Below, one piece after another: positions 1,056 through 6,023 of a stretch of DNA of 64,000 nucleotides; the first letter of the stretch is position 1, and each line of letters starts with the position of its first letter. Source of the DNA: Nitrospira sp. (lineage in GTDB: Bacteria; Nitrospirota; Nitrospiria; Nitrospirales; Nitrospiraceae); the NCBI GenBank assembly GCA_030123565.1, contig CP126122.1, positions 124,001 through 188,000 of the forward strand. Reading direction: 5' to 3'. Both the position numbers and the translations under genes were made by a program. The notes below the pieces were generated by a model. That model was given only the letters and a program-made list of their open reading frames with translations. It did not search any database and had not been told where the DNA came from.

Positions 1056-1706
1056 ATGGCTGATCGAGCCGCTGGAATACCGATCGTAAAGGAAGGGTGG
1101 CCGTTCGTCGGTGGTCTGGGAGGCGCGGCGCTGCTTTTTGGCTTGGTCGGCTGGACCATTCCGACGGCGCTGGCGGGAGGGTTCATGCTCTTCACCGCTT
1201 GGTTCTTCCGGAATCCCAGCCGGACCATCCCCCAGCAGCCCAACGTGGTGGTGTCGCCGGGCGACGGCAAAGTGATCGCCATCGAGGAAGAGTTCGAGCC
1301 GCGCTACCTGAAGGAGAAGAGCATCAGGGTCACGGTCTTCTTGAACGTGTTCGATGTACATGTGAATCGAATGCCCTGTGCCGGGACGGTGGAAGGCATC
1401 AGTTATCAACCGGGCCAGTTTCTCGTGGCCAGCAAGCCGGAGGCGACGCTCCATAACGAGCAAAATGCCGTCATGTTGAAGACGGCCTCAGGAGCGAAAG
1501 TGCTCTGTGTGCAGGTTGCGGGATTGATCGCCCGCCGAATCGTCTGTTGGGTCGGGCAGGGAGACCTGGTGCAGCGGGGTGAACGGTACGGATTGATCAG
1601 GTTCGGATCGCGGATGGATACCTTCGTGCCGCTTGGTTCCAAGATTTGCGTTGCGGTGGGTGATCGGGTCAAGGGGGGAGAAACCATCGTGGGGGAACTC
1701 CGATGA
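1056..1706 (+). CDS. psd: Phosphatidylserine decarboxylase proenzyme (short form)
   Basis: 216-residue member of the short, archaeal-like phosphatidylserine decarboxylase group. It converts phosphatidylserine to phosphatidylethanolamine and depends on a pyruvoyl group made by self-cleavage. The sequence shows one or two N-terminal hydrophobic segments (about residues 15-45), the FFRNPSRTIP stretch, NVFDVHVNRMP in the middle, and the self-cleavage site GS in IRFGSRMDTFVP near residue 187. The start ATG at 1056 has a purine-rich Shine-Dalgarno sequence around 1042-1052. The stop overlaps the pssA start by four bases (ATGA), so the two steps of phosphatidylethanolamine synthesis are translationally coupled. 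Confidence 0.95.
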   Translation: MADRAAGIPIVKEGWPFVGGLGGAALLFGLVGWTIPTALAGGFMLFTAWFFRNPSRTIPQQPNVVVSPGDGKVIAIEEEFEPRYLKEKSIRVTVFLNVFDVHVNRMPCAGTVEGISYQPGQFLVASKPEATLHNEQNAVMLKTASGAKVLCVQVAGLIARRIVCWVGQGDLVQRGERYGLIRFGSRMDTFVPLGSKICVAVGDRVKGGETIVGELR

Positions 1707-2503
1707 AATCACCGGCCATGCGGGCTCCGTTTGCCAAGGGCAATCGAAAACGACAGGCCATGTACTTGATTCCTAATCTGTGCACGACGGGGAATTTGTT
1801 TTGCGGCGTCTTTGCCATTTTGTCTGTGTTCAACGGTCACCATCTGACCGCGGCCATCGCGATCCTGGTCGGGATGATCTTCGATATGCTGGACGGCAAG
1901 TTGGCTCGGTTGACGAACAGCACCGGCCAGTTCGGCATCGAATACGATTCCCTGTCGGATGTCGTATCGTTCGGTGTCGCGCCTGGCGTGCTCATCTATT
2001 CCTACGCCTTGAGCGGGCAGGGGATGTTCGGGGTGGCGGTCATGTTCGCCTATGTCGCGATGGGGGCGGTCCGGTTGGCGCGGTTCAACGCCACGGTGAG
2101 CACGTCCGACAGCAAATACTTCACGGGGCTGGCCATTCCGGCGGCGGCCGGCGTCATCGCCTCGTTGGTGATCTTCGATCTCCACTTCACCCAGATGGGT
2201 GCCGAAGTGAAGCCGTTGCTGATCTTAGTGATCACGTTTGCCTTGGCGTTTCTCATGGTGAGCACGATCAAGTACCGCAGCTTCAAGGACCTGAAGTTCC
2301 GGCGAGGCGATCACTTTACCTACCTGGTGTGGGGCATTCTCGCCTTGATGTTGATTGCGGCCTGGCCGCAGGTTATGGTATTCGTCATCTTTGCCGGCTA
2401 TGCCCTGTCCGGTCCGATTGCACGGCTCTGGACGGTGGTGGCCAAGAGCGCAGGGAAGCAGGTTGCGAAGACCGATGCGCCGGTGTTGGATTCGAGAGAA
2501 TAG
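1703..2503 (+). CDS. pssA: CDP-diacylglycerol--serine O-phosphatidyltransferase
   Basis: 266-residue membrane enzyme that makes phosphatidylserine from CDP-diacylglycerol and serine, the substrate of the product of the preceding psd gene. The CDP-alcohol phosphatidyltransferase signature is intact: DG then AR, G, D and D in DMLDGKLARLTNSTGQFG followed by IEYDSLSD (about residues 66-90). The remainder is a series of hydrophobic helices. The start ATG overlaps the psd stop by four bases. The gene ends 14 bases before the first stem of the leucine T-box leader, so the promoter for the downstream leu transcript must lie in or very near the end of pssA; I could not pick one with confidence. Confidence 0.95.
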   Translation: MKSPAMRAPFAKGNRKRQAMYLIPNLCTTGNLFCGVFAILSVFNGHHLTAAIAILVGMIFDMLDGKLARLTNSTGQFGIEYDSLSDVVSFGVAPGVLIYSYALSGQGMFGVAVMFAYVAMGAVRLARFNATVSTSDSKYFTGLAIPAAAGVIASLVIFDLHFTQMGAEVKPLLILVITFALAFLMVSTIKYRSFKDLKFRRGDHFTYLVWGILALMLIAAWPQVMVFVIFAGYALSGPIARLWTVVAKSAGKQVAKTDAPVLDSRE

Positions 2504-2509
2504 GAATGG

Positions 2510-2770
2510 CTGTGATGAGGAGTAGTAGGCGGAACCGACCGAACTGAGAGAGCTGGTGGGTGGTGCGAACCAGCCGGTCATTTGCCGAACTCGCCTCTGA
2601 GCTGGACTCGTGAAGCCTCTGCGGTGGTAGTGAGTCCCGAGTCATCCACGTCACGGATCGAATCAAGGGCGGTAGGATGGGGAATCCTCTTCATCTACTG
2701 CTGAATCAGGGTGGTACCACGAAGTTCCGAAAGGCCTTCGTCCCTGTCCAGGGGCGAAGGCCTTTTCTTT
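2510..2770 (+). promoter_or_regulatory. Leucine-specific T-box leader upstream of leuA
   Basis: A tRNA-sensing T-box leader. Stem I: GAGG (2517-2520) pairs with CCTC (2594-2597), and GGC (2528-2530) with GCC (2584-2586). These flank an internal loop with AGTAGTA on the 5' side (the AGTA loop-E motif) and GAACTCG on the 3' side, placing the specifier CTC (Leu) at 2590-2592. The distal part holds GAGAGAGCTGGTGGGTGG and GCGAACCAGC. The T-box itself is AGGGTGGTACCACG at 2708-2721; its TGGT can pair with the ACCA end of tRNA-Leu. A perfect 11-bp terminator stem with a T-rich tail follows. Uncharged tRNA-Leu should favour the antiterminator and switch on leuA. Identification rests on motif order and spacing read by eye. 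Confidence 0.9.
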
Positions 2771-2771: not shown

Positions 2772-2895
2772 GAGGCTGGTGAAAATGGCTTTCTGCTGCG
2801 TTCTCGCGGCGCTCAACGACTCGACGTACCAGACGACGTACGCCTCGTCGTTTCGCTTGCTGCGGCCTTGCCGAAAGGCCATTTTGACCAGCCTC
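2772..2895. repeat. Long palindromic intergenic element between T-box and leuA
   Basis: The terminal arms are 18 bases each: GAGGCTGGTGAAAATGGC at 2772-2789 and GCCATTTTGACCAGCCTC at 2878-2895, complementary at 17 of 18 positions. The interior also has complementary pieces: TTTCTGCTGCG on the left against CGCTTGCTGCGGC and GAAAG on the right. It is about 124 bp, has no coding potential, and ends eight bases before the leuA Shine-Dalgarno sequence. I associate this kind of element with Nitrospira intergenic regions, but no second copy occurs in this window. Confidence 0.75.
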
Positions 2896-2916
2896 GAATA
2901 CTAAGGGAGGTGTGCC

Positions 2917-4464
2917 ATGACCAGGATGATCAGAATATTCGACACGACGTTGCGGGACGGCGAACAATCGCCTGGGGCGAGCATGAACGTCGAAGAGAAG
3001 CTCATGATCGCCAAGCAGCTGGCGCGCCTCGGCGTGGATATCATCGAAGCCGGCTTTGCCTATAGTTCGCCCGGTGATTTCGAGGCGGTGCGCCGGATCG
3101 CCCAGGAAGTCGAGGGGCCGGTGGTCTGCAGTCTCGCCAGGGCGAGGCCGGAGGACATTACGCGGGCCCATGAAGCCTTAAAGGGTGCGCCGAAGGTCCG
3201 CATCCATACCTTTCTTTCGGCGTCGGACATCCACCTCAAGCACCAGTTCCGCATGACGCGGGAAGAAGCGAAGCGGCGTGCCGTGGAGATGGTGCAATTG
3301 GCCCGCACCTATGTCGAGGATGTCGAGTTTTCGCCGATGGATGCGAGCCGAGCAGATCCGACCTACCTCTGTGAGGTCATCGAGGCGGTCATTGCGGCAG
3401 GGGCCGGGACGGTCAATATTCCCGACACGGTGGGGTATGCCAACCCTCAGGAGTTCGGTGGGTTGATTAAGAGGATCAAGGACAGCGTATCGACCAGCGG
3501 ACAGGCCGTGATCTCCGTCCATTGCCACAACGATTTGGGGTTGGCCGTGGCCAACAGCCTTGCCGCGGTGATGGCGGGAGCCGGGCAGGTCGAATGTACG
3601 ATCAACGGCATCGGCGAACGGGCGGGCAACACCTCGTTGGAAGAAGTCGTCATGGGTTTGCGGACGCGCAAAGACTGGTATGGGGCCGATACGAAGGTCG
3701 TCACCGAAGAGATTGCAAAGACCAGCCGTCTCGTGAGCAAGATCACCGGCATGGTCATCCAGCCGAACAAGGCCATCGTCGGCGCCAATGCCTTTGCCCA
3801 CACGTCCGGCATCCACCAGGATGGGTTGCTGAAGGATAAGACGACCTATGAGATCATGCGGCCGGAATCCATCGGGCTTGAGCAGAACAAGCTGGTGATG
3901 GGCAAGTTGTCCGGGCGCCATGCGTTCCGTCAGCGGCTGGAGGAGTTGGGCTACAAGCTGACGGAGGACGAGGTCAACCATGCGTTCGAACGGTTCAAAC
4001 GGTTGGCGGACCAGAAGAAAGAGATTTACGAGGAAGATATCGAAGTGATCGTGTCCGAAGAAGTCGCCAAGATGTCGGAGCGGGTGGTCTTGAAGGCGTT
4101 TCATGTCGAAAGCGGGACCAATATGGTGCCGAAGGCCACGGTTGAGCTGGAGATCGACGGGAAACCGGTGACCCACAGCGGGACCGGGGACGGGCCGGTC
4201 GACGCGGTCTACCGGACGATCGCTGCCATGACCAAGACGAAGAGCAAGTTGCTGATGTTCGGTGTCAACGCCATTACCGGCGGCACGGATGCGCAAGGGG
4301 AGGTGTCCGTGCGGCTTGAAGAAGCCGGACGGACGGTGTCCGGGCATGGAGCCGATACGGATATCATTACCGCCGCTGCACGGGCCTATCTGAACGCCCT
4401 CAATAAGCTGGCCTATTTCGCCGTCAAGCAGGAGGAAGGAATTCAGAAGGTCAGCTTGATTTGA
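2917..4464 (+). CDS. leuA: 2-isopropylmalate synthase
   Basis: 515-residue enzyme that condenses acetyl-CoA with 2-oxoisovalerate, the committed step of leucine synthesis. The N-terminal TIM barrel begins with IFDTTLRDGEQSPG (residues 6-19, with the catalytic Arg and metal-binding Asp), then VHCHNDLGLAVAN with the metal-binding His pair, NGIGERAGN, and HTSGIHQDG. The C-terminal part (from about residue 390) is the LeuA dimer domain used for leucine feedback. The length suits LeuA; citramalate synthase is the main alternative, but the leucine T-box upstream and leuB downstream favour LeuA. Start ATG 2917 has Shine-Dalgarno AAGGGAGGTG at 2903-2912. Confidence 0.95.
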   Translation: MTRMIRIFDTTLRDGEQSPGASMNVEEKLMIAKQLARLGVDIIEAGFAYSSPGDFEAVRRIAQEVEGPVVCSLARARPEDITRAHEALKGAPKVRIHTFLSASDIHLKHQFRMTREEAKRRAVEMVQLARTYVEDVEFSPMDASRADPTYLCEVIEAVIAAGAGTVNIPDTVGYANPQEFGGLIKRIKDSVSTSGQAVISVHCHNDLGLAVANSLAAVMAGAGQVECTINGIGERAGNTSLEEVVMGLRTRKDWYGADTKVVTEEIAKTSRLVSKITGMVIQPNKAIVGANAFAHTSGIHQDGLLKDKTTYEIMRPESIGLEQNKLVMGKLSGRHAFRQRLEELGYKLTEDEVNHAFERFKRLADQKKEIYEEDIEVIVSEEVAKMSERVVLKAFHVESGTNMVPKATVELEIDGKPVTHSGTGDGPVDAVYRTIAAMTKTKSKLLMFGVNAITGGTDAQGEVSVRLEEAGRTVSGHGADTDIITAAARAYLNALNKLAYFAVKQEEGIQKVSLI

Positions 4465-4946: not shown

Positions 4947-6023
4947 GTGAAAGCGAGAATCGCAGTCTTGGCCGGCGACGGAGTCGGCCGTGAAATCGTC
5001 CCGGAAGCGGTCAAGGTGTTGAAGTCCGTGGCAGAGCGGTACGGCCATAATTTTGAATTTGTCTCCGGTGATGTCGGCGGCCATGCCATCGATAAAGTCG
5101 GGGTGCCGTTGCCGCAGGAAACCCTGTCGATTGCGAAACAAAGCGATGCGGTGTTGCTCGGGGCGGTCGGCGGCCCGAAATGGGAAGGGCTGGAGTACAG
5201 CCTTCGTCCCGAGCGGGCGTTGCTCGGCTTGCGGGAACAACTCGGGCTCTATGCCAATTTGCGTCCGGCCAAGCTCTATCCCATGCTCGCCGACGCCTCC
5301 ACCTTACGGAGGGACGTCATCGAGGGGATCGACCTGCTGGTCATCCGCGAGCTGACCGGCGGCATTTATTTCGGCAAGCCGAAGGGCATCGAACCGTTGC
5401 CCGGCGGCGGAGAGCGCGGGTTCAACACGGAAGTCTATACGACCGATGAAATTCGCCGGATCGCCGTGGTGGCGTTCGAGACGGCTCGCAAACGCCGCAA
5501 GAAGGTCACCTCGGTGGACAAGGCCAACGTGCTGGAATCTTCGGAATTGTGGCGGCGGGTGGTGACGGACGTGCAGAAGGACTATGCAGACGTGGCCTTG
5601 AGCCACATCTACGTCGATAACTGTGCGATGCAGTTGGTGCGGAATCCACGGCAATTCGACGTGTTGCTCTGCAACAACATCTTCGGCGATATCCTCAGCG
5701 ATGAGGCGGCGATGCTGACCGGTTCGATCGGCATGTTGCCCTCCGCCAGCGTCGGGGCCAAGGTGGGCCTCTTCGAGCCGATCCACGGCAGCGCCCCGGA
5801 CATTGCGGGGAAAAACATCGCCAATCCGATCGCAACCATTGCCTCCGCGGCGATGATGTTGTCCTATGCCTTCCGGCTTGAGAAGGAGGCGGAGGCCATC
5901 GAGCAGGCGATCGTCAGGACCCTGGATCAGGGGTTCCGCACCAAGGACATTCATGCCGAGGGCATGAAGTCGGTCGGCACCACCGAGATGGGTGATGCCA
6001 TTGTGCGCAATCTCGCCTCGTGA
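4947..6023 (+). CDS. leuB: 3-isopropylmalate dehydrogenase
   Basis: 358-residue NAD-dependent oxidative decarboxylase that turns 3-isopropylmalate into 2-oxoisocaproate in leucine synthesis. Signatures: [12 protein letters not shown] at the N terminus, [10 protein letters not shown], the substrate-binding arginines in [32 protein letters not shown], the catalytic Lys in [46 protein letters not shown] and [18 protein letters not shown]. Start GTG at 4947 is preceded by GAGAGGAGA (4931-4939). The stop overlaps the GTG start of the NHL gene. leuCD are not in this window. Confidence 0.97.

Follow-up and report, generated by a model that had tools for sequence, protein, structure and literature searches.

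A T-box leader upstream of leuA in a Nitrospira genome and its structural variants across the phylum Nitrospirota

T-box leaders are known directly upstream of leuA in Geobacter and Pelobacter, where, in the available portions of PMC2700814 and PMC2494555, the Geobacter leader was predicted to recognize tRNA-Leu with the anticodon GAG, i.e., the codon CUC. The ilv-leu T-box of Bacillus subtilis is leucine-specific as well, as described in the accessible text of PMC12452182 and PMC5794164, and CUC was reported as the specifier of 74% of Leu T-boxes in the part of PMC7778990 available. Here, we confirm a T-box leader upstream of leuA in a Nitrospira genome, within the window (the whole stretch of 64,000 nucleotides analyzed). 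It shares its specificity with the B. subtilis leader, the position directly upstream of leuA with those of Geobacter and Pelobacter (leuA precedents from delta-proteobacteria had been mentioned in the original prediction, and these are the ones in print), which belong to a different phylum (delta-proteobacteria / Desulfuromonadota), and the codon CUC with the prediction for Geobacter. T-boxes of this kind are well known, but the kind appears to be undescribed in Nitrospira or Nitrospirota, as nothing naming a T-box together with either of them was found in the open-access literature.

The Rfam T-box model RF00230 matched positions 2503-2748 of the plus strand with 100.6 bits (cmscan; gathering score 93, E 5.3e-21), and the alignment takes in the full model (1-219). 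RF00230 was the sole Rfam 15 family to exceed its gathering score in the whole window, and this T-box was the single RF00230 match in its own genome (one contig of 4,616,681 bases; E up to 0.1). The original prediction had started the element at 2510 and proposed such a search as its check; the element is real and above the curated cut-off, while its match begins a few nucleotides earlier. All T-box elements named at that time were located at 2503-2770 (Table 1), except that the terminator, formerly called perfect, is near-perfect, with arms 2730-2746 and 2749-2765 being 94% complementary and followed by CTTTTCTTTT. The leader thus possesses a Stem I with a codon matching the pathway, an AG-bulge plus distal loop, a UGGN bulge, and a mutually exclusive antiterminator and intrinsic terminator as in class I T-boxes, and it lies upstream of a biosynthesis gene of the same specificity. 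The reading phase of this codon was taken from the RF00230 alignment and T-box convention, and the AG-bulge and distal loop (2546-2568) are predicted to constitute the tRNA-elbow-binding module. A chance resemblance is ruled out by the RF00230 match, the phylum-wide conservation, and the covariation taken together.

Table 1. Features of the leuA leader and its surroundings, in positions of the window.
Feature	Position	Strand	Basis
pssA, directly upstream	1703..2503	+	TIGR00473 above cut-off
T-box leader, aptamer and expression platform	2503..2765	+	RF00230 to 2748, terminator to 2765
Stem I	2508..2603	+	covariation on 44 sequences
AGUA of loop E / S-turn, 5' side of specifier loop	2524..2527	+	invariant in Stem I alignment
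AG-bulge GAGAGA	2546-2551	+	RF00230 consensus alignment; AGAGA near invariant
Distal loop	2558-2568	+	RF00230 consensus alignment; GGUG near invariant
GAACTCG facing AGTA	2587-2593	+	sequence
Specifier codon CUC (Leu)	2590..2592	+	reading of 125 leaders
Stem II, GGACUC...GAGUCC with S-turn-like motif	2604..2637	+	RF00230 alignment, sequence
Stem IIA/B region, boundaries approximate	2638..2663	+	RF00230 alignment
Stem III	2669..2701	+	RF00230 alignment
T-box sequence AGGGTGGTACCACG (RNA form AGGGUGGUACCACG)	2708..2721	+	sequence; UGGU in all leaders read
T-box bulge UGGU (TGGT), complementary to tRNA ACCA end	2712-2715	+	all leaders read
Antiterminator helix, 2707-2711/2742-2746 and 2719-2724/2736-2741	2707..2746	+	pairing over 40 sequences; folding energy
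Intrinsic terminator, hairpin 2730-2765 and U-tract	2730..2770	+	inverted repeat; pairing over 40 sequences; folding energy
Imperfect palindromic repeat, ~125 nt, between terminator and leuA, outside T-box	2773..2897	+	genome-wide family
leuA, 2-isopropylmalate synthase, putative regulated gene	2917..4464	+	TIGR00973, NF002086 above cut-off
leuB, downstream of leuA	4947-6023		NCBIfam model above cut-off

We put the probability at about 95% that leuA is controlled by a class I, transcription-attenuating, tRNA-Leu-sensing T-box riboswitch. By analogy with characterized T-boxes, RNA polymerase would transcribe the leader, the CUC specifier in Stem I would read the anticodon GAG of tRNA-Leu, and the distal module of Stem I would grip the tRNA elbow. 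If this tRNA is uncharged, its ACCA end would pair with the UGGU bulge and stabilize the antiterminator, and the polymerase would enter leuA, while in the case of leucine-charged tRNA the more stable terminator would form and leave leuA untranscribed.

Stem I, the antiterminator, and the terminator each covary across relatives. In the Stem I alignment, which consists of the window and 43 script-chosen sequences with <90% identity (44 sequences, all of canonical Stem I length), 91.2% of cells are paired vs. 81.1% in shuffled data, changes on both sides are present in 18 of 23 pairs, and none of 500 shuffles reached the observed value on any of five covariation measures. When the pairing was slid out of register, 28-48% of cells were paired, all below the true register, and an unguided RNAalifold run produced largely the same Stem I helices, plus three pairs through the specifier loop. 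For the switch region, the window was aligned with 39 leaders hand-picked from a set of 84, and 98.2% of cells are paired in the antiterminator and 93.1% in the terminator over these 40 sequences. Two measures for the antiterminator did not beat the shuffles, namely the number of pairs with changes in both partners, which 43 of 500 shuffles equaled or exceeded, and that of further pair types, for which 205 of 500 did so, because this helix hardly varies. The folding energy is -28.6 kcal/mol for the terminator (2730-2765) vs. -13.4 kcal/mol for the antiterminator (2707-2746); since the two helices share one strand and the terminator is far more stable, the default fold would be OFF.

To survey the phylum, 395 Nitrospirota genomes drawn evenly were searched with RF00230 at E up to 0.001, and 125 of them gave matches, 58 over the Rfam cut-off, as did five of 14 control genomes, including B. 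subtilis. In family f1, the Nitrospiraceae to which the window belongs, 108 of the 110 sampled genomes carry the T-box, and the two misses are explained by a leuA that is missing (G336) or cut by the contig end (G388); no listed genome of the sister family f2 matched. Leaders were read in all 125 matching genomes (126 loci), leaving out locus L199, which is one half of a T-box split over two contig ends and gave no T-box motif. The T-box is followed by leuA in 122 of the 125 loci, the other three having too little sequence, and is preceded by pssA in 121, the rest being three contig ends and one true exception (L197). Among named Nitrospira leuA loci, 78 of 80 have a strict T-box motif together with GAACTC upstream; of the remaining two, L042 starts inside leuA and L060 carries a one-base motif variant with the specifier CUC. 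The leader is likewise present in N. moscoviensis (L043).

The specifier codon was left free in the regular expression used for reading the leaders, and it was nevertheless a leucine codon throughout (one leader per matching genome), with CUC in 122, CUG in three (L016, L021, and L267), and a non-Leu codon in none. The base 3' of the specifier is G in 118 leaders and A in seven. The T-box bulge is UGGU in 125/125, although conservation of the T-box in these leaders is partly by construction, since a T-box model found them in related genomes. The comparison of related leuA leaders therefore bears out the CTC specifier and the TGGT that the original prediction had read in the window. Among ten long-armed tRNA genes fetched from the same genome, five are tRNA-Leu genes, including a tRNA-Leu(GAG) gene ending in GCACCA, whose discriminator A and ACCA end match UGGU, just as had been expected of a tRNA-Leu. 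Because all five tRNA-Leu end in ACCA, the bulge cannot separate the isoacceptors, and the specifier does so.

Upstream of pssA are ilvC and psd, both named by NCBIfam models above their cut-offs, and, by visual judgment, two ORFs that precede ilvC (-2527 to -635 and -593 to -75 in window coordinates) resemble ilvB and ilvN. The psd-pssA-leuA neighborhood is presumably present in Geobacter and Pelobacter as well. The nearest named leuA loci are those of Nitrospira (92-95% identical; Candidatus Nitrospira defluvii 94%), which agrees with the assignment to Nitrospirota that had been made from the letters. Stem I begins 4-5 nt 3' of the pssA stop codon (2501-2503), and the corresponding gap has a median of 8 nt and is ≤25 nt in 71 of 119 loci. 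A consensus scan of 2300-2950 revealed no sigma-70-like promoter, and the best promoter-like score of f1 leaders (mean 5.6) did not exceed that of shuffled sequence (mean 5.9). Since Stem I hugs the pssA stop and the scan of 2300-2950 is empty, transcription of the window leader probably comes, at least in part, from further upstream and runs through ilvC-psd-pssA. Elsewhere, a strong promoter-like site lies just upstream in all six f9 leaders, with 15-19 nt between TTGACA and a hexamer resembling TATAAT, and TTGACA-N17-TAAGAT occurs in four of the five f16 leaders.

The repeat between the terminator and leuA belongs to a family with 30 matches in the same genome. Its orthology across genomes was considered on the basis of sequence and rejected, as cross-genome likeness (means 0.78 and 0.80) is the same as that to own-genome copies (0.79); position alone is conserved, the sequence being no closer than other copies. 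Of 125 T-box loci, 72 have a member of the family in the spacer 3' of the terminator, in most cases right after the U-tract. Many of the own-genome copies start straight after TAGC, as if abutting the stop codons of preceding genes. The T-box lies ~1.2 kb from leuA in L248 and L071, with several repeat copies in between in L248.

Could the leader be a T-box by descent only, whose regulation was lost and whose leuA is served by a promoter behind the terminator, e.g., within or after 2773-2897? The ~125-nt repeat that separates the terminator from leuA would fit such a relic, and family f2 shows that the locus can be without a T-box. However, the functional parts are intact over 125 genomes, with compensatory changes, the rare specifier changes remain leucine codons, and no promoter-like site was found in 2300-2950, making this explanation very improbable, although it is the best of those rivaling a working T-box.

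Family f2, in which the T-box is absent, was sampled by searching 48 genomes, 43 of which have leuA, and 41 leaders were read, as two leuA genes are cut at the 5' end. The gap is ≤70 nt, without any leader, in 15 of the 41 and >100 nt in 26, for some of which the pssA stop was unmapped and 400 nt were taken. A terminator was recognized by motif in 23 of the 26 long leaders, and by eye in one (L173), and its position between pssA and leuA is that of the f1 T-box terminator. A Leu-rich ORF (12-45 codons, start ≤25 nt from the pssA stop, ≥19% Leu codons, the 19% line having been set after seeing the peptides) is present in 14 of the 38 f2 loci in which this stop was mapped vs. 0 of 121 T-box loci. 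The 12 f2 ORFs of exactly 31 codons have on average 7.3 Leu codons vs. 2.5 when shuffled, while one of them, L303 with 4 Leu, shows no enrichment (shuffle P 0.20), and some short f2 ORFs, such as those of L288 and L316, are not Leu-rich. The f2 loci with both a Leu-rich ORF and a terminator fall within L172-L179 and L288-L320. For 12 equal-length ORFs of 15 similar ones, pN/pS is 0.61 in frame vs. 0.76 and 1.07 in the other frames, pointing weakly to purifying selection on the peptide; the Leu excess speaks for the peptide more strongly.

In eight f2 loci, no T-box remnant was found by the covariance model, even at E up to 5. The 12-mer AGCCTTCGTCCC occurs 1-3 times per genome in six f2 genomes, which were chosen because their leaders show it, and, by coordinates, once in each leuA leader, while g16/g17 terminators carry AGCCTTCACCTC in its place. 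Judging from the shared position and this 12-mer, the f2 terminator may be derived from that of the T-box. The Leu-rich ORFs, together with the terminator kept at this position in most long leaders, suggest that leader-peptide attenuation replaced the T-box in f2. In a leuA tree built on 51 hand-picked rows, f1 is grouped with f2 (support 99/94), and at least six changes between T-box and no T-box are required, four of which are forced by well-supported branches; loss of the T-box is favored in f2, while gain or transfer may have occurred elsewhere in the tree.

The same ribosome-mediated attenuation by a Leu-rich peptide, as proposed for f2, might be imagined for the window with the T-box being idle, given that f2 combines a terminator at the same position with a Leu-rich ORF, but a 12-45-codon ORF near the pssA stop is present in just 26 of 121 T-box loci, none of which reaches 19% Leu, and the aptamer in the window is complete, so this possibility is negligible. 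Hardly any weight can be given either to a translational T-box, in which the leader would gate ribosome access to leuA instead of termination, as known from Actinobacteria in the available text of PMC1262725 and PMC7583486, for here the leuA start lies ~150 nt beyond the expression platform, which consists of a hairpin plus U-tract and does not overlap the leuA ribosome-binding site.

Besides the canonical transcription-attenuating form of the window, several structural variants of the T-box were identified in relatives. All six f9 T-boxes (L194-L197 from the phylum survey, and L331 and L332, located afterwards) have an ultrashort Stem I, in which a 12-22-nt hairpin (4-7 bp), without AG-bulge or distal loop, caps the specifier loop, whereas Stem II with its S-turn-like motif is retained. 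According to the accessible part of PMC7583486, the elbow-binding module is generally needed by T-boxes that act on transcription. The folding energy of the f9 terminator is -32 to -38 kcal/mol in three loci, and in the other three a hairpin and T-run are visible by eye, the T-run being interrupted in L197; in another f9 genome (G262, L329), the gap is 23 nt and the T-box is absent. In two f16 genomes (L192 and L193), 57-58 nt separate the specifier from the T-box and Stem II is not evident. Loss of Stem II has so far been explained for glycine T-boxes. The distance from the Stem I anchor to the specifier, usually 67-71 nt, is 86-93 nt in 23 leaders and 129-197 nt in 13. A copy of the genome-wide repeat described above is lodged within Stem I in nine of 125 leaders, all among the long ones (L211, L271, L277, L280-L283, L285, and L287), with specifier and T-box intact; these copies, being 94-98% alike, seem to go back to one insertion. 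Three f1 leaders (L201-L203) have an additional hairpin within the apical loop of Stem I.

On balance, we favor the view that the pssA-leuA junction of Nitrospirota holds an evolutionary series of one leucine attenuator. Such a series would comprise (1) the canonical T-box of f1, including the window; (2) the terminator-bearing f9 T-boxes without the elbow-binding half, which run against the generalization on the elbow module; (3) the Leu T-boxes without evident Stem II in the two f16 genomes; (4) the T-boxes with a repeat lodged inside Stem I, specifier and T-box being kept; and (5) the f2 leaders, in which a peptide would have replaced the tRNA sensor ahead of a T-box-derived terminator. If the last stage is true, two different sensors of the same signal have worked through a single expression platform. 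The relatives offer natural deletions, in a single orthologous T-box of the same specificity, of both the elbow module and Stem II, and in f2 sensing has likely been switched from tRNA to the ribosome, so that the minimal requirements of a T-box become directly testable. Leucine-specific T-box control would also be extended to nearly all sampled Nitrospiraceae, the family of the nitrite oxidizers, while the wider interest lies in a phylum-wide series of variants at one locus.

Compared with known systems, the B. subtilis T-box heads the whole ilvBNC-leuABCD operon, whereas that of the window lies inside the cluster, after ilvC-psd-pssA, and would therefore set leuA apart from the ilv genes, predicting separate leuA control within a branched-chain amino-acid gene cluster. 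The f9 leaders resemble the ultrashort Stem I ileS T-boxes of Actinobacteria, in which the distal elbow-binding part is also absent and Stem II is kept, but they have a terminator-like platform, while the available text of PMC7583486 ties loss of the elbow module to translational T-boxes; the window T-box, unlike both, has a long Stem I. In Staphylococcus aureus, ilv-leu is preceded by a Leu-rich attenuator peptide where B. subtilis uses a T-box, as stated in the accessible portion of PMC5794164. Family f2 looks parallel to this case; unlike in S. aureus, however, its terminator is located at the site of the T-box terminator of a sister family and, in some genera, shares sequence with it.
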